Source of the DNA: Pelagicoccus sp. SDUM812005
Lineage (GTDB): Bacteria > Verrucomicrobiota > Verrucomicrobiia > Opitutales > Opitutaceae
DNA: 64,000 nt
Direction of reading: 5' to 3'
Assembly: GCF_031127875.1 (NCBI RefSeq)
Contig: NZ_JARXIA010000027.1
Span: 1-64,000 of the forward strand
Shown here: piece by piece, positions 10,075 through 38,338 of the stretch
Position numbering within the stretch: position 1 is the stretch's first letter
Layout of the letters: each line of letters opens with the position of its first letter
The notes under the pieces: generated by a model
Told to the model about the DNA's origin: nothing
Seen by the model: the letters and a program-made list of their open reading frames with translations, nothing else
The model's database searches: none
Program-made: the position numbers and the translations under genes

Positions 10075-11568
10075 ATGATAAAGAAGAAACTATTTATAGC
10101 GGCGGCTGCTGTGCTCGTCACCGGGGCCGAGGCGCAAATCGAAGCGAATTGGGAGGCGATGGCGCGAAACTACCGCGTGCCGGATTGGTTCGTAGATGGG
10201 AAGATCGGAGTTTGGACCCACTGGGGAGTACCCTCTGCGATTGACGAAAACAGACCGAGCGATGGTTCCCACTACGGTCGCCGCATGTACGGACCCAACG
10301 AGGGCGAAAGCGGCCGGCAGTATGACATGACCAAGAAGCTCTCCGATTTCCATGCGGAGCGCTACGGTCCGCCATCGGAATTTGGATACGAGGACTTGGT
10401 GCCGCTCTTCAAGGCGGAACGCTGGGATCCAGAGGGGCTTGTGCAGTTCTTCAAGGAAAACGGAGCTCGTTTTATCATGCCGGTGGCCTGCCATCATGAC
10501 AACTTCGACATGTACGATTCCTCCCATCCCTGGAACTCGGTGGATATGGGGCCTAAGCGGGATACCTTGCGGGAGTGGAAGGATGCCGCCTACAAGCACG
10601 GCTTGAAGTTCGGGGTATCGACCCATCTCTATTGGTCGCCCCGATTTTTCAACAACGCTCGCCAGTACCAAAAGCCGGGTACCTTGGAGTGGCAGCTCTT
10701 CAGCATGGACTACGATCCCAAGGGATACGCCAACCAGGAGAGCTGGAACCGACACTGGTACGAACGTTGCTGGGAGATTATCGAAAAGTACGATCCGGAC
10801 ATGTTTAACAACGACTCCCCGTACCCAGCGGACAAGTTCGGGGACGTTTCGGGTGTGAAGTTGTTTTCCGAATACATCAATCGAGACTTAAAGGAAAACG
10901 AGGGAAAGCAAACGACGGTGCTCTCCTTCAAGAATGGCAGCGTCGACCGGTCCGCTTTCACCTATAACCTCGAACGTGGTAGCGCCGGGGAAATCAAGCC
11001 CGAGCCATGGATGTGGGCGACGGACGTTTCGGGTGGCTGGTACTATCGCAAGGGGGCCAAGAATCGCATGAGCATTCCCGTGATGGTGGGGAATGCGGTG
11101 GATGCGATCAGCAAGAATGGTGTCGTCATGCTCAACGTAGGGCTGCGAGGCGACGGAACGCTGCCGGAGAACCAGGCCGCCTATATAACGGCTATCGGCG
11201 ATTTTATAAGGGTGAACGGGGTTGGCATCTATGGGAGCCGTCCTTGGAAGCTCTTTGGCGAAGGTCCGCTCAAGATGAAGGACGGGCGCCAAGGCGAAAA
11301 TCACCGGGACTTCTCGCAGGAGGATATTCGTTTTACCCAGAAGGGAGAGGTTTTGTACGCCTTCGTTCTGGCCCCGCCGACTAAGGATATTGTGATTGGC
11401 GCCCTTGCGAAAGGGGGCTTGTTCGAAGGGGAGGTCGGAGAAATCGCCCTGCTGGGCAGCGAGGAGCCGGTTGTTTTCGAGCGCAACGCCAAGGCATTGA
11501 CCATAAAGCTTCCCAAGTCCCTGCCGCAGGGGCAACACGTGGTTGGATTTTCGATTACGAAGAAATGA
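10075..11568 (+). CDS. GH29 alpha-L-fucosidase, secreted (second copy)
   Basis: A signal peptide (MIKKKLFIAAAAVLVTGAEA) leads a 497-residue GH29 enzyme. Landmarks are WFVDGKIGVWTHWGVPS, MPVACHHDNFDMYDSS, GLKFGVSTHLYWSP and DMFNNDSPYP, where D247 takes the nucleophile position; NGVVMLNVGLRGDGTLP marks the end of the barrel. It is clearly different from the GH29 at 710, so the two probably cut different fucose linkages. An Asn precedes the nucleophile (NND rather than WFD), a variant found in part of the family. The spacing of 222 bp from TonB receptor 1 leaves room for a separate promoter, but none was identified. Expected location is the periplasm. Confidence 0.92.
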   Translation: MIKKKLFIAAAAVLVTGAEAQIEANWEAMARNYRVPDWFVDGKIGVWTHWGVPSAIDENRPSDGSHYGRRMYGPNEGESGRQYDMTKKLSDFHAERYGPPSEFGYEDLVPLFKAERWDPEGLVQFFKENGARFIMPVACHHDNFDMYDSSHPWNSVDMGPKRDTLREWKDAAYKHGLKFGVSTHLYWSPRFFNNARQYQKPGTLEWQLFSMDYDPKGYANQESWNRHWYERCWEIIEKYDPDMFNNDSPYPADKFGDVSGVKLFSEYINRDLKENEGKQTTVLSFKNGSVDRSAFTYNLERGSAGEIKPEPWMWATDVSGGWYYRKGAKNRMSIPVMVGNAVDAISKNGVVMLNVGLRGDGTLPENQAAYITAIGDFIRVNGVGIYGSRPWKLFGEGPLKMKDGRQGENHRDFSQEDIRFTQKGEVLYAFVLAPPTKDIVIGALAKGGLFEGEVGEIALLGSEEPVVFERNAKALTIKLPKSLPQGQHVVGFSITKK

Positions 11569-11705: not shown

Positions 11706-14700
11706 ATGCTATATAAGAAAGTGAAGTCTGGGATGGCTTGCTTGTGTTTCGCCGGCGCTCTGCATGCTGATACGCCGATCAACCTCGATTTCGTAGACCT
11801 GAATGCCGCAACGGAATCTGCCACGAATACCTTGAAAGTCAGCCAAAACGGTGAGGCGGCTTCCGCGGAGGGCCTTTCGGTAACCGGCCTCCTCGACGGG
11901 AATAACTATGTTTACTCCGTTACCTATACCGGAGTCGATCTAGATGGCGACGCAGTGGGTGACACCTTGAGTTTCGATGTCGTAGTTGAAGGATTTTCAG
12001 CTGGGCTCGTGGACAAAAAGACTTTGGGGACGGTGCCGGGCGATACGGTTAGCAATGCTTCGATGGCCATCGGCGCGACCGATACCGAAGTCTCTTTGAC
12101 TACCGATGAAGCGGTGACCACTTGGGTGGTCAGCCACGACCGCATGGCCGCGGGAGAGACCTTGAAGTTCACCATCGATAATGCGAGTTCGAGTGTCGGC
12201 GCCGTAACTGCGGTCGCGTCCTTCCGGTCGGTGGAGGCGTTGGAGTGGGCTTCCCACAGTCACCAAGCGATCATAGGCGAGGGTACGGACTCCTTGAACG
12301 GATACGATTTCAACACGAACCTCACCATCCCCATCGGGACGGGCGTGGAAACCCTGTACGTCTCTGCTGCCAATCCCGGCAATGCGAATGGAGATTGGGG
12401 AGTGGGGAGCATCGACTTCGCTCTGGCGGTCACGCTGGGCGGTTCTGGCGAGGAGCCGGAGGAGCCGACGGGCGATGGAGTTGTGTACTGGGAAGGCGCC
12501 GTCGATAGCAACTGGAACCGGCCGGGGAACTGGTCTTCCGATTACCTTCCGGGAACGTTTCCCGACGAGCTTGTGGTGCTAAGCGGCGAAGACGCTCCGG
12601 TTGTGCCTACTTGGGTGGAAACGGAGGAAGCGGTTTCCTTGCATATCCTCGATGGCGCGACTCTGGAAGTGTGTAGAGGCCTGCTCCGGATCGGTGAACT
12701 GCTTATGGGGAGCGATGCCGGCACGGGCGGCGGAGCGATGCAGTTGGTTTCGGCGGCGGAAGTGGCTGTCGCAGGCGATCTGCGAATCGGCGACGCCGCC
12801 GATGCGCTATCCGAGTCCTCCTTGGAACTGAGCTCTGGAAGCCTGCGGGTAGACGGCGAGCTGCAGGTTGGAAACGGTTTGTTGGAAGTCCGAGGAGACA
12901 AGCCAACCCTCGAAGCGAACGACCTTGCGGTAGGTGAGAACGGAACGCTCCGCTTTACTTTCGACATGAAGCCGGTCTCCCAGATTCAGGTAGCGAACGA
13001 GCTGAGCATCGCGGAAGGAGCCAAGCTGGAGATCGACCTTCGCTACTACAATACGGGCGGAAACGAGCTTGAGCTGATACGTTTCGCCTCGGTCAGCGGC
13101 AGCTTCGATCCTGCGAATATCACTATTACCGGTTTAGCGGGCGGACTCGTGACCCTGGATGAGGACAGCCTCAACCTGACTGTCTACGACGACGTCGCAG
13201 CTCGTTCCAGTACGCTCTGGTTCGTAGCGACGGGGGGAGATGGATCCAACCCGCTTGACTTGCAAGTGAACACCGGACGACGCATTCGGGACATTTCCTC
13301 TCCGGATATGAGCTACGCGGCGGTCGCGGAGGGCGACGACTGGATCTACTCCGGAACCTGGTCGGGGTCGGATTTCGATGGTGACGGTATCAATGATACA
13401 GTGTCCTTCGACTTGAGGGTGGAAGGTTTCGCCGGGTCTGCCTTCAGCTACGACGAGGGTACCGGAGCGGCGTCGATGACGGAGCTCGGAAGCGCTGCAG
13501 GGGTCAGCGGCGATGGAGCCGGCTGGGGCGTGGGCGAAGACAGCGATTTGGATGCGGGCGAAAGCCTGCGTTTCACGGTGGAGAACCTGCAGCTTTCGAC
13601 GCAAGGCGGCACGATGGAAGGCTTCGTCGGGGCCCACCTGGTGGAACCGGATGCCGGCTTCGGCCACATCTTGATCGTTGGCCAAGGGGAAGGGCTGCTG
13701 GCTCAGAAATCGAATTTTGCGACCGGCTTCGGCTTTTCGCCGGCGGATGCCTTGCTCGTTACTTCGGGAGCGGACTCCAAGGTTCGGGTCAACAACGTTG
13801 CCTTCAAGCTGATCGTATCCGAACTTCCTGACTTTTTGGATACGGAGGTGGGCGACTATTCGCATTATCCGACAGGTCCTCAGCATCGAAGCGAGTATCC
13901 AGAAGTTACCGACATCGACTATCCCGATTGGACCTGGGATACGGTACAAATGGCGGCGGGCGTGCACCGCAACGACGCATTGCCCGACGACGTAGCCGAG
14001 CTGATGGCGAACACCTATCCGGTGATTTCCTTGGGCGGAAGAAACTTCTATGGCGAAGCCTATGTTGAGGACGGCCTGGCTGCAGTGGCGGCTAAGCTCA
14101 AGTCCTTCAATCCCGACCTGCACGTCACGACCTATCGCAACGCCGGGCTGCATCACGATCGCATGAGTGGGAATCAAAGCTACAATCGCGATTGGAGCCT
14201 GTACGACCTCGATGAGGAGGGGAACCGCGTCTACGACGTCATCCGCTTGTGGGACCGCTACAACCACGACCATCCGGAATTCCGCCAGTGGTGGAGCGAC
14301 TGGTGCGTCGAGCGGTTGGAGGATCCCAATCTCGACAGTCTCTTCATCGACAAGGCGACCGGTGGCGACGACGCCTTGCTCAGTCACGATGGTGAGATTG
14401 TAGCCCCAACGAACCGCGTGAAGTCCTACCTCAGCATTCGGGAGCGCATGCCGGAAGGCGACGTGCTGACGGGCAATATTTTGCGGACCAGCTACTTTGG
14501 CGGCAATCGCGAGCTGTTGCACCTTTTCAACAGCACCTACTCGGAAGGCTGGAAAGGCGGCAACGGCGACAGCCTCGTCGCACTCAGCGACGCGGACGCG
14601 ATCTCTGCCAGCCTGCAGATGTTCCGCGAGGCTTCGATGAAAGGGATGATGGTCCAGCCGAATCACGCCGAGCTCAACCACTTCGTCCTAAGCGGCGAGG

Positions 14701-16451
14701 AAGCAATCGCCATGATTGCGGAAGGCCGCAAGGGCGAGGTGATCGATACCATTCGCGAAGTGATCCAGTTGCCTCTGGCGTATCATCTTATTTATTCGGA
14801 AGCCTATTCCTACTTCGGCTTCCAGGTGGCGCGTACTGGGGAGTTCGGGGAAGCGGAGTTTCTCTGGAACCCCAAGCCTTACGTCGAAGAGTTTCGCCAT
14901 CCTCTGGGCGCTCCGCTCGGGCCTCCTGTTCGCAACGGCTACGTTTATACGCGTTCCTTCGAGCATGTTGATGTTTGGTTGAACGTGGAAACCGAAGAGT
15001 GCCGCCTGGTCTGGGATTGGATGCCGATCGCTAAAGCTCAGGAAGCGGGCGTGATCGAAGGACGCTCCGTCGAGGTCGAGCTGACCGGCTCCAATCCGCG
15101 GGAATCGGAACTTGCCTTCGAGGTCTTTAGTCTACCCGAAAACGGCGTTCTGAGCGGAACCGCTCCCCATCTCGTCTATACGCCGAATCCCGGCTTCGTC
15201 GGATCGGACAGCTTCACCTTCAAGACAGTCAACGACATGGCCAAGAGCCTGAAGGCAACGGTTTCCATCACGGTGCAAGCGAACAATGTCCCGCTCGCGA
15301 ATGCAGCTAGCGTATCCACGACCGAGGATACGCCCGAGTCCATCGTCTTGACGGGGTCGGACCTTGACGGCGATGCGTTGAGCTATGCGGTCGAGAGCCA
15401 GCCTCTTTACGGGACGCTTAGCGGCACGGCGCCGGACTTGGTCTATACGCCAAGTTTGGATTTCGTAGGCACGGACCATTTCACCTTCGTGGCGAACGAC
15501 GGATTCGCCGACAGCGTTGCAGCGACCATTGAGATCGCGGTGCTGGCCGATACGGATGGCGACGGCATTATCAACGATCTGGATACGGACGACGACAACG
15601 ACGGGACGCCTGACGTGTTTGACCGTTTCCCGTTGGATCCCAGCGAACAGGTGGATTCGGATGGAGATGGCCTTGGAAACAATGCCGATCTGGACGACGA
15701 TGAAGACGGTGTTGCGGACCTTGTCGACAGCTGTCCTACGACAGCGAATACGGACCAGGCAGATATCAACCAGGACGGTTATGGCGATGTGTGCGTGGAT
15801 ACCGGATCCGAAGTGGATCCCAGCGCCGTACTCGGCTATAATCCTTTTGTGGGCTCGGGGTCGGTGATCGAAAAGGATGTTATTATCGGAGACCATTTAC
15901 TCGTTGGAGAAAACGTGAGCATTGGAAAAGAGGCGACAATCGGGGCCCACTTTACGATTGGGGACGGAAGTTCGATCGGACGATTCAGTTGGCTCGGCCA
16001 GGATGTCTTTATCGGTTCCGGTACAGCGGTGGAACGTTTCGTGATCTTGCGCGACGGCTCGGTATTGGGAGACTACGTCGAGCTCGAGCGGTTCAGCGAA
16101 TATGGAGAGGCCGTCGAGATCGGCGATCGCTCTAGCCTTGGCTACTTCACGCGGGCAGGAAACGGTCTCACGGTTGGCGAGGATTGCCTCCTGGCGCGCT
16201 TCAGTAGCTATGGGGACGAAGTGCGCATCGGCGATCGCGTCGAGACGGGATTCTTCACCAACCTTGCTTCCACCGTGAGCGTCGGGGACGACGTCTCGAT
16301 GGGATTCTTCGTGCGGGTCGGCGAGGGAAGTGCGATCGGAGCCGGCGTACGGATCGGTAGCTTGGTGCGTATCGGAAAGAATGTTACGATCGCGGCGGGA
16401 GCGATCGTGCCAACCGGATCGCGCATACCCGACGGGGCCGTCGTCGAATAA
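11706..16451 (+). CDS. Giant secreted multidomain protein with candidate glycosidase barrel
   Basis: A 1581-residue protein with signal peptide (MLYKKVKSGMACLCFAGALHA). Apparent domains: beta-sandwich A (23-255); a beta-solenoid segment opening WEGAVDSNWNRPGNWSS (260-495); beta-sandwich B related to A (both contain DxDGDxxxDTxSFDxxVEGF, 498-705); a TIM-barrel-like region resembling the uncharacterised GHL glycosyl-hydrolase Pfam families (about 708-1111, candidate acids D882 in LFIDKA and E947 in TYSEGW); two cadherin-like repeats (1118-1277, each with GxLSGTAPxLVYTP); thrombospondin type 3 calcium repeats (1280-1365); and a hexapeptide left-handed beta-helix to the C-terminus (1376-1580). 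Catalytic role is inferred; no CAZy family is recognised with confidence. The neighbourhood suggests a fucan endo-hydrolase or a surface-bound binder. Confidence 0.75.
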   Translation: MLYKKVKSGMACLCFAGALHADTPINLDFVDLNAATESATNTLKVSQNGEAASAEGLSVTGLLDGNNYVYSVTYTGVDLDGDAVGDTLSFDVVVEGFSAGLVDKKTLGTVPGDTVSNASMAIGATDTEVSLTTDEAVTTWVVSHDRMAAGETLKFTIDNASSSVGAVTAVASFRSVEALEWASHSHQAIIGEGTDSLNGYDFNTNLTIPIGTGVETLYVSAANPGNANGDWGVGSIDFALAVTLGGSGEEPEEPTGDGVVYWEGAVDSNWNRPGNWSSDYLPGTFPDELVVLSGEDAPVVPTWVETEEAVSLHILDGATLEVCRGLLRIGELLMGSDAGTGGGAMQLVSAAEVAVAGDLRIGDAADALSESSLELSSGSLRVDGELQVGNGLLEVRGDKPTLEANDLAVGENGTLRFTFDMKPVSQIQVANELSIAEGAKLEIDLRYYNTGGNELELIRFASVSGSFDPANITITGLAGGLVTLDEDSLNLTVYDDVAARSSTLWFVATGGDGSNPLDLQVNTGRRIRDISSPDMSYAAVAEGDDWIYSGTWSGSDFDGDGINDTVSFDLRVEGFAGSAFSYDEGTGAASMTELGSAAGVSGDGAGWGVGEDSDLDAGESLRFTVENLQLSTQGGTMEGFVGAHLVEPDAGFGHILIVGQGEGLLAQKSNFATGFGFSPADALLVTSGADSKVRVNNVAFKLIVSELPDFLDTEVGDYSHYPTGPQHRSEYPEVTDIDYPDWTWDTVQMAAGVHRNDALPDDVAELMANTYPVISLGGRNFYGEAYVEDGLAAVAAKLKSFNPDLHVTTYRNAGLHHDRMSGNQSYNRDWSLYDLDEEGNRVYDVIRLWDRYNHDHPEFRQWWSDWCVERLEDPNLDSLFIDKATGGDDALLSHDGEIVAPTNRVKSYLSIRERMPEGDVLTGNILRTSYFGGNRELLHLFNSTYSEGWKGGNGDSLVALSDADAISASLQMFREASMKGMMVQPNHAELNHFVLSGEEAIAMIAEGRKGEVIDTIREVIQLPLAYHLIYSEAYSYFGFQVARTGEFGEAEFLWNPKPYVEEFRHPLGAPLGPPVRNGYVYTRSFEHVDVWLNVETEECRLVWDWMPIAKAQEAGVIEGRSVEVELTGSNPRESELAFEVFSLPENGVLSGTAPHLVYTPNPGFVGSDSFTFKTVNDMAKSLKATVSITVQANNVPLANAASVSTTEDTPESIVLTGSDLDGDALSYAVESQPLYGTLSGTAPDLVYTPSLDFVGTDHFTFVANDGFADSVAATIEIAVLADTDGDGIINDLDTDDDNDGTPDVFDRFPLDPSEQVDSDGDGLGNNADLDDDEDGVADLVDSCPTTANTDQADINQDGYGDVCVDTGSEVDPSAVLGYNPFVGSGSVIEKDVIIGDHLLVGENVSIGKEATIGAHFTIGDGSSIGRFSWLGQDVFIGSGTAVERFVILRDGSVLGDYVELERFSEYGEAVEIGDRSSLGYFTRAGNGLTVGEDCLLARFSSYGDEVRIGDRVETGFFTNLASTVSVGDDVSMGFFVRVGEGSAIGAGVRIGSLVRIGKNVTIAAGAIVPTGSRIPDGAVVE

Positions 16452-36532: not shown

Positions 36533-38338
36533 ATGTCTGAATTAAATGCATCCCCAAGCCCTTGGACGGGCTCTCTCCCCAAGATTGGAATTCGTCCGAC
36601 GATCGACGGTCGTCTCGGCGGCGTACGCGAATCCCTCGAGGAGCAAACCATGGAGCAAGCTCGGTCGGTGGTCGAGCTCTTGACTAAGGTCTTGCGCTAC
36701 CCGAACGGCGAGCCGGTCGAGTGCGTGGTGGCGGACACTTGCATCGGCGGCGTCGCCGAAGCAACAGCTGCCGCGGAGAAGTTCCGCAAGGAAGGCGTCA
36801 CGGTCACCATCACGGTCACGCCTTGCTGGTGCTACGGCTCGGAAACCATGGACATGGATCCGCACACGGTGAAGGCGATCTGGGGCTTCAACGGCACCGA
36901 GCGTCCGGGCGCTGTTTACTTGGCGGCCGCCCTGGCGGGCCATACGCAAAAGGGTCTGCCCGCATTCGGCATTTACGGCAAGGACGTGCAGCCTGCCGGC
37001 ACCAAGGAGATCCCGGCCGACGTGGCGGAAAAGCTGCTTAACTTCGCTCGCTGCGGATTGGCGGTTGGCTTGATGAAGGGCCGTTCCTACCTCTCCATGG
37101 GCGGTACCTCCATGGGAATCGCGGGTTCCATGGTGGACAATTCCATGTGGGAAAAGTACCTCGGCATGCGAGTGGAAGCCATCGACTTGACCGAGTTCGT
37201 GGGCCGCTTGCAGAAGGGGCAGTTCGACCAGGACGAGTTCGAGAGAGCGAAGGCTTGGGTGGCTGAAAACTGTCCGGAAGGGAAGGACTACAACTCTGAG
37301 GAGACCAAGCGCTCCCGCGAGTCCCTCGACAGCGAGTGGGATGTATCCATCAAGATGGCCTTGATCGCTCGCGACCTAATGGTGGGCAATCCCAAGCTCG
37401 CGGAGATGGGACTGGGCGAGCAAGCCCATGGGCATGGCGCCATCGCTGCCGGTTTCCAAGGCCAGCGCCAGTGGACCGACCATTTCCCCAACGGCGACTT
37501 CCTGGAAGCCATCCTGAACACTTCCTTCGACTGGAACGGCAAGCGTCCTCCCTACATCGTAGCGACCGAGAACGACGCCTTGAACGGCGCCGGAATGCTC
37601 TTTGGCCACCTGCTGACCAATTCGGCTCAGATCTTCGCCGACCTGCGCACCTACTGGAGCAAGGACGCGATCGCCCAGGCGAGCGGCGAGAGCTTGGACA
37701 ACGACTTGGTCGAAGACGGCATCCTGCACCTCATCAATTCCGGCCCGGCTGCCCTCGACGGCACTGGCCAGCAGAGCGATGCGGACGGCAACCCGACCAT
37801 GAAGCCGTATTGGGAAATTGAGGACAGCGAAGCGGAAGCCTGCTTGAAGGCTACCACTTGGCATCCGTCCATCACGGAGTACTTCCCCGGTGGCGGTTGG
37901 AGCACTCGCTACAAGACGCGTGGAGGCATGGCTTCGACGATGATCCGCTTGAACTTGGTGGACGGCCTCGGCCCGGCGCTGCAGATCGCGGAAGGTTATT
38001 CCATCGAGCTGCCAGACTCTATCCACACGGCGCTCGACGACCGCACCAACCCGACTTGGCCAACCACTTGGTTCGCTCCGACGCTTACCGGCAAGGGGGC
38101 CTTCCGCAGCGCGTACGAGGTCATGAACAGCTGGGGCGCGAACCACTGCGTGCTGACCTGCGGTCACGTAGGGCATCTCTACATCACGCTGGCTTCCATG
38201 CTCCGCATTCCGGTCTACATGCACAACGTATCCGAAGAGCGGATATTCCGTCCGAGCTCGTGGCGCGCGTTTGGCACGGCAGACCTCGAAGGCGCGGATT
38301 TCCGAGCCTGCGAAAACTACGGTCCCTTGTACCGCTAA
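36533..38338 (+). CDS. fucI: L-fucose isomerase
   Basis: A 601-residue cytoplasmic isomerase converting L-fucose to L-fuculose, close to the E. coli FucI length of 591. Landmarks: [24 protein letters not shown] at the N-terminus, [47 protein letters not shown] with Glu346, and FADLRTYWS with Asp370. These two are 24 residues apart, as are the manganese ligands Glu337 and Asp361 of E. coli FucI. The third ligand is probably His545 in TCGHVGH. It lies in an operon with the kinase upstream and a mutarotase 8 bp downstream. This is the firmest evidence that L-fucose is the sugar the locus is built to use. Confidence 0.97.

Follow-up and report, generated by a model that had tools for sequence, protein, structure and literature searches.

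A predicted secreted GH168-type endo-fucanase of Pelagicoccus with an exchangeable C-terminal hexapeptide tail

The open reading frame at 11706-16451 (+ strand, 1581 aa) of the window, by which we mean the whole 64,000-nucleotide stretch of Pelagicoccus sp. SDUM812005 DNA under analysis, is predicted to encode a giant secreted protein that joins a divergent GH168 barrel to a C-terminal hexapeptide solenoid. Taken as a whole, the protein is best explained as a secreted GH168 endo-fucanase with a non-catalytic, exchangeable solenoid, one side of which bears a ladder of aromatic or basic residues that would lie along a polyanion and serve in retention, a reading to which we give about an even chance. 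What is new here is probably the use of the tail as an extracellular module, the GH168 barrel being of a known family.

Layout of the protein and assignment of its barrel

The coordinates and the order of the parts were confirmed, with Pfam finding GHL15, two Big_9/cadherin-like repeats, TSP_3 and Hexapep in the sequence set out by the earlier sequence-only reading. The features of the gene and of two genes of the same region are as follows.

10075..11568, +, GH29 alpha-L-fucosidase, neighbour gene (PF01120, E 8e-70)
11706..11768, +, signal peptide, aa 1-21, MLYKKVKSGMACLCFAGALHA (by eye from the sequence)
11769..12449, +, N1, beta-sandwich-like domain, aa 22-248 (paralogue of N2, BLAST)
12477..13205, +, solenoid-like stretch, aa 258-500 (appearance of the sequence)
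13206..13829, +, N2, second copy of the N1-type domain, aa 501-708 (BLAST)
13893..15017, +, predicted GH168 catalytic TIM barrel, aa 730-1104 (PF14885, Fun168D match, profile)
14349..14351, +, D882, predicted nucleophile (aligns on MeGH168 chain residue 170, which is Asp167 when the tag is allowed for; PMC12210190)
14544..14546, +, E947, predicted acid/base (aligned with the Fun168D Glu)
15024..15542, +, two Ig/cadherin-like repeats, aa 1107-1279 (Big_9, E 1.1e-19; Cadherin_5, E 4.3e-9)
15543..15809, +, thrombospondin type 3 (TSP3) repeats, aa 1280-1368 (TSP_3 in Pfam; COMP 3fby)
15810..16448, +, type-1 hexapeptide tail, aa 1369-1581 (Hexapep, E 2e-22; coil layout)
36533..38338, +, L-fucose isomerase, same region (PF07881/PF07882/PF02952)

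The barrel is the best-defined part. PF14885 (GHL15) matches at 801-1087 (E 1.1e-17), and residues 732-1103 match solved GH168 endo-fucanases from end to end, the best being Fun168D (9joc/9jof; phmmer E 4.6e-26). A profile built from five GH168-type proteins, namely the fucanase and four paralogues from its own genome, retrieved ten PDB sequences with E values from 1e-87 to 1e-144. The entries 9JOC/9JOF and 8YA6 are FUN168D and Fun168A, respectively (PMC11943901, Table 2), and 9NHF is MeGH168, with Asp167 as nucleophile and Glu237 as acid/base (PMC12210190). The corresponding residues D882 and E947 are invariant in the alignment of the fucanase with its four paralogues, none of which has a hexapeptide tail; the PF14885 score of the fucanase is the weakest of these five proteins. 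A (beta/alpha)8 fold is to be expected from homology to the solved barrels. Because the match to GH168 extends over the full barrel and both catalytic residues are kept (PMC11943901, PMC12210190), we assign the protein by sequence as a divergent GH168 member, and the earlier suggestion of a new fucanase family is not borne out. GH174, a first guess from the label 'endo-1,3-fucanase', was ruled out once the PDB codes had been mapped to GH168.

The suggestion of a fucanase is itself well supported by the neighbourhood, since the region contains genes for GH29 fucosidases, sulfatases, GH97, a Raffinose_syn-family protein, L-fucose isomerase and sugar kinases. Neither a missing barrel or acidic pair nor orthologues in genomes lacking fucan genes were encountered: barrel homology and D882/E947 are present, and among nine genomes compared the two that have the tail are also the two that have GHL15 barrels. 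At another locus (L027:6693-10055), a right-handed beta-helix protein that matches GH141_M weakly is fused ahead of a GH168-type barrel.

The flanking parts are defined to differing degrees. The two Big_9/Cadherin_5 repeats span about 1107-1277 in Pfam, and the TSP3 region is identified by a TSP_3 match at 1317-1351 (E 1.1e-5) and by similarity to COMP (3fby, E 5.8e-9). N1 (22-248) and N2 (501-708) are paralogues, with 33% identity over 145 aa (BLAST, E 6e-13). Neither domain had a match in Pfam, NCBIfam or PDB, and the intervening stretch (aa 258-500) had no family match; the labels 'sandwich' and 'solenoid' for residues 22-708 therefore stay impressions from the sequence. The N1/N2 pair (window 11769-13829) is a possible new binding domain.

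Anatomy of the hexapeptide tail

The last 220 residues contain five Hexapep stretches (Pfam, E 2e-22) with tandem [LIV]-[GAED]-x2-[STAV]-x hexads, and a profile of the tail finds LpxD (2iu8, E 7e-14) and LpxA (6oss, E 6e-13) in the PDB. The tail of the fucanase belongs to type 1, which consists of 11 consecutive coils, each exactly 18 residues long and free of insertions, a regularity far beyond chance; a shorter type 2 has six to seven coils. Two AlphaFold models place a two-residue strand every six residues with confidence (pLDDT 82 and 89), but among the best PDB matches found by Foldseek for both models there was no left-handed helix, just weak right-handed helices. We suspect that shallow alignments led to models of the wrong handedness. 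The handedness of the helix thus rests on the sequence family and our claim is for a hexapeptide solenoid as judged from the repeat; of the left-handed hexapeptide helix proposed for the C-terminus, the repeat is confirmed by Pfam and by the LpxD/LpxA profile, and the left-handedness is without a Foldseek match.

One side of this solenoid is distinctive. In the fucanase a phenylalanine recurs at 1427, 1445, 1463, 1481, 1499, 1517 and 1535, and across type-1 coils position 16 is aromatic in 78% and position 15 basic in 48%. Type-2 coils have a basic residue at position 15 in 94%, forming a lysine ladder at the same place. The aromatic ladder runs through 7/7 coils in six type-1 tails, as against three or fewer in the 19 scorable LpxA/LpxD-like controls, and permutation of hexapeptide columns reached the ladder in 0/5000 trials for type-1 aromatic, 0/5000 for type-1 basic and 1/5000 for type-2 basic residues. 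On the other two prism sides of type 1, Asp/Glu prevail at the matching turns, and type-1 tails are net acidic overall. The basic column at coil position 15 is poorly conserved, with 20% pairwise identity among type-1 tails, and in type 2 an Asp comes after the ladder lysines in half of the coils.

The fold family by sequence might suggest that the tail is itself an enzyme, either a secreted O-acyltransferase or a gamma-carbonic anhydrase. The tails contain no conserved His, and the LpxA/LpxD catalytic motif, the catalytic-site loop and the C-terminal helices are all absent. With gap-free coils, no such loop and no conserved His, the tail is judged not to be an enzyme; we consider a catalytic role extremely improbable, and the absent motif and His speak against an acyltransferase or carbonic anhydrase.

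Carriers, distribution and exchange of the tail

The last 300 residues of the fucanase recur within its own genome, where the TSP3-hexapeptide unit was found in seven giant secreted proteins and one fragment, on contigs C31, C38, C39, C53 and C63. TSP3 repeats lie directly ahead of the tail in all seven carriers, and the tail is C-terminal in six. The catalytic part is of the GH107 endo-fucoidanase type in one carrier (E 3e-81) and of the fucoidan lyase FdlA type in another (E 2e-33), to which a further carrier is homologous (30%). Of three others, one is a right-handed-helix protein that shows chondroitinase-B-like and xylosidase-like traces, one is alginate-lyase-like and contains four CBM6/35 domains, and one is a GH167-like enzyme (E 6e-57). 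Most of the carriers are related to enzymes that act on anionic algal polymers in endo fashion.

The FdlA-like homologue (L025:7262-13537) contains several copies of a single domain of ~220 residues in alternation with TSP3 arrays, and in the GH167-like carrier (L026:4322-10306) a Dockerin_1-like domain comes after the hexapeptide tail. A free hexapeptide ORF of 224 aa, with neither TSP3 nor a catalytic part (L022:2413-3087; G000:C31:786413-787087), is 93% identical in sequence to the tail found ~17 kb away on the GH107-type carrier and looks like a duplication remnant.

Among 252 genomes of the family the module was found only in this genome (G000) and in one of another genus (G136), and it was absent from the seven other genomes of the genus to which G000 belongs. 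The other matches across the order (132 genomes), family (252) and phylum (388) were enzyme-size hexapeptide ORFs; a wider contig scan, limited by its short patterns, returned just LpxD/LpxA/gamma-CA-like ORFs of 172-401 aa, and no tail was found in viral contigs. A wide distribution of the tail is unsupported by these scans.

Comparison of the two genomes demonstrates that the tail is an exchangeable module that follows no single enzyme class. The G136 orthologue of the FdlA-like carrier is 60% identical in its body and 56% in its tail. The alginate-lyase-like carrier and its G136 homologue are 50% identical over 1354 residues; the former has a short type-2 tail, the latter a long type-1 tail, and the two tails are 26% identical. 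The presence of different tail types on homologous enzymes indicates that the tail moves independently of the enzyme. Six other proteins that share the alginate-lyase-like catalytic domain lack a hexapeptide tail; at their C-termini are, as judged by eye, LamG, F5/8, CBM or other domains. Tails on enzymes with unrelated catalytic domains are 65-69% identical, which argues for one common partner: a generic polyanion, the cell surface or one another.

Possible roles of the tail and comparison with known systems

From these sequence features, the tail is most likely a non-catalytic polyanion-binding or surface-retention module. In the mechanism that we propose, D882 would attack and E947 would act as acid/base in a secreted multi-domain GH168 endo-fucanase that may cut alpha-L-fucan outside the cell, with activity and linkage deduced by homology. 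The Ig and calcium-binding TSP3 repeats would hold the barrel away from the solenoid, the ladder side of which could lie along a polyanion, be it a polymer of the algal wall or an anionic glycan on the surface of the cell itself; this contact may keep the enzymes near both substrate and cell. That the tail occurs on seven secreted carriers, most of them algal-polysaccharide enzymes, lacks acyltransferase features and has a one-sided aromatic/basic ladder lends strength to the earlier proposal of a new surface-anchoring or fucan-binding module, without proving it. The more general claim is that depolymerases of anionic algal polysaccharides have taken up a hexapeptide beta-helix as an extracellular and exchangeable C-terminal module for interaction (a new CBM-like or surface-retention family), which acts through a linear aromatic/basic ladder on a single prism side; we hold this claim to be evenly poised between right and wrong.

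A row of exposed Phe would suit contact between proteins no less than a glycan site. Three prisms may pack through the Phe side, or the Lys/Asp side, to give multivalent enzymes or mixed depolymerase complexes. LpxA, LpxD, GlmU and gamma-carbonic anhydrase, the closest sequence relatives of the tail, are trimers; the Phe ladder and the alternating Lys-Asp pattern are plausible interfaces, and the same tail on different enzymes would permit mixed assembly. LpxA/LpxD-like controls, however, have no such ladder, and we regard oligomerization as a tentative alternative with roughly one chance in its favour to three against. A sorting or outer-membrane attachment signal, read by dedicated machinery as in PEP-CTERM or T9SS, would account for the C-terminal position in most carriers, the conserved type-1 end (..VE) and the sharing of one tail by enzymes with differing catalytic domains. 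The absence of any standard sorting signal had been pointed out before, and the PEP-CTERM match (TIGR02595) is indeed lacking on the fucanase gene and present elsewhere in the genome. Against such a signal are the dockerin-like domain beyond the tail of the GH167-like carrier, the quite different domains at the ends of the tail-less homologues, the existence of two tail types and the lack of an identified partner gene, which together make this explanation unlikely. It is less likely again that the tail is a mere rigid spacer or protease-resistant cap: it is a very regular rod adjoining other spacer repeats, but a spacer has no need of a ladder on one side that is conserved among paralogues and in a second genus, and a unit that is terminal in six of seven carriers separates nothing.

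Fucoidan resists degradation and is a store of marine carbon. A module common to first-cut enzymes (GH107, GH168 and fucoidan-lyase types) would explain how large enzymes are retained at the substrate or cell. If this is true, the tail would be, to our knowledge, the first hexapeptide helix to serve as an extracellular CAZyme accessory module, and its regular 18-residue ladder a ready scaffold for sulfated-polymer binding. We know of no CBM of the hexapeptide-helix type. In the literature we found no description of secreted hexapeptide-helix tails on CAZymes or of hexapeptide-helix CBMs, hexapeptide genes being mentioned merely as neighbours in PMC9957290.

The whole barrel aligns with GH168 endo-fucanases (Fun168D, 9JOC; Fun168A, 8YA6; MeGH168, 9NHF), with D882/E947 matching the catalytic pair, but it is set here in a protein of 1581 aa with N-terminal, Ig, TSP3 and hexapeptide parts. 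The usual place of a hexapeptide helix is in internal acyltransferases. LpxA, LpxD and GlmU share with the tail the hexapeptide repeat and three hexads per 18-residue coil; they are cytoplasmic and of enzyme size, whereas the tail belongs to a far larger protein with a signal peptide, is fused to polysaccharide depolymerases, lacks the catalytic His and loops and carries a one-sided Phe/Lys ladder. The C-terminal CBMs of CAZymes (CBM6, CBM35, F5/8, LamG) occupy the same place and, by eye, replace the tail in homologous alginate-lyase-like enzymes, although the tail is unrelated to them in sequence. Finally, the PEP-CTERM and T9SS sorting domains are likewise C-terminal units common to several exported enzymes; unlike these, the tail has no hydrophobic or basic end and no PEP-CTERM match, and can be followed by a dockerin-like domain.
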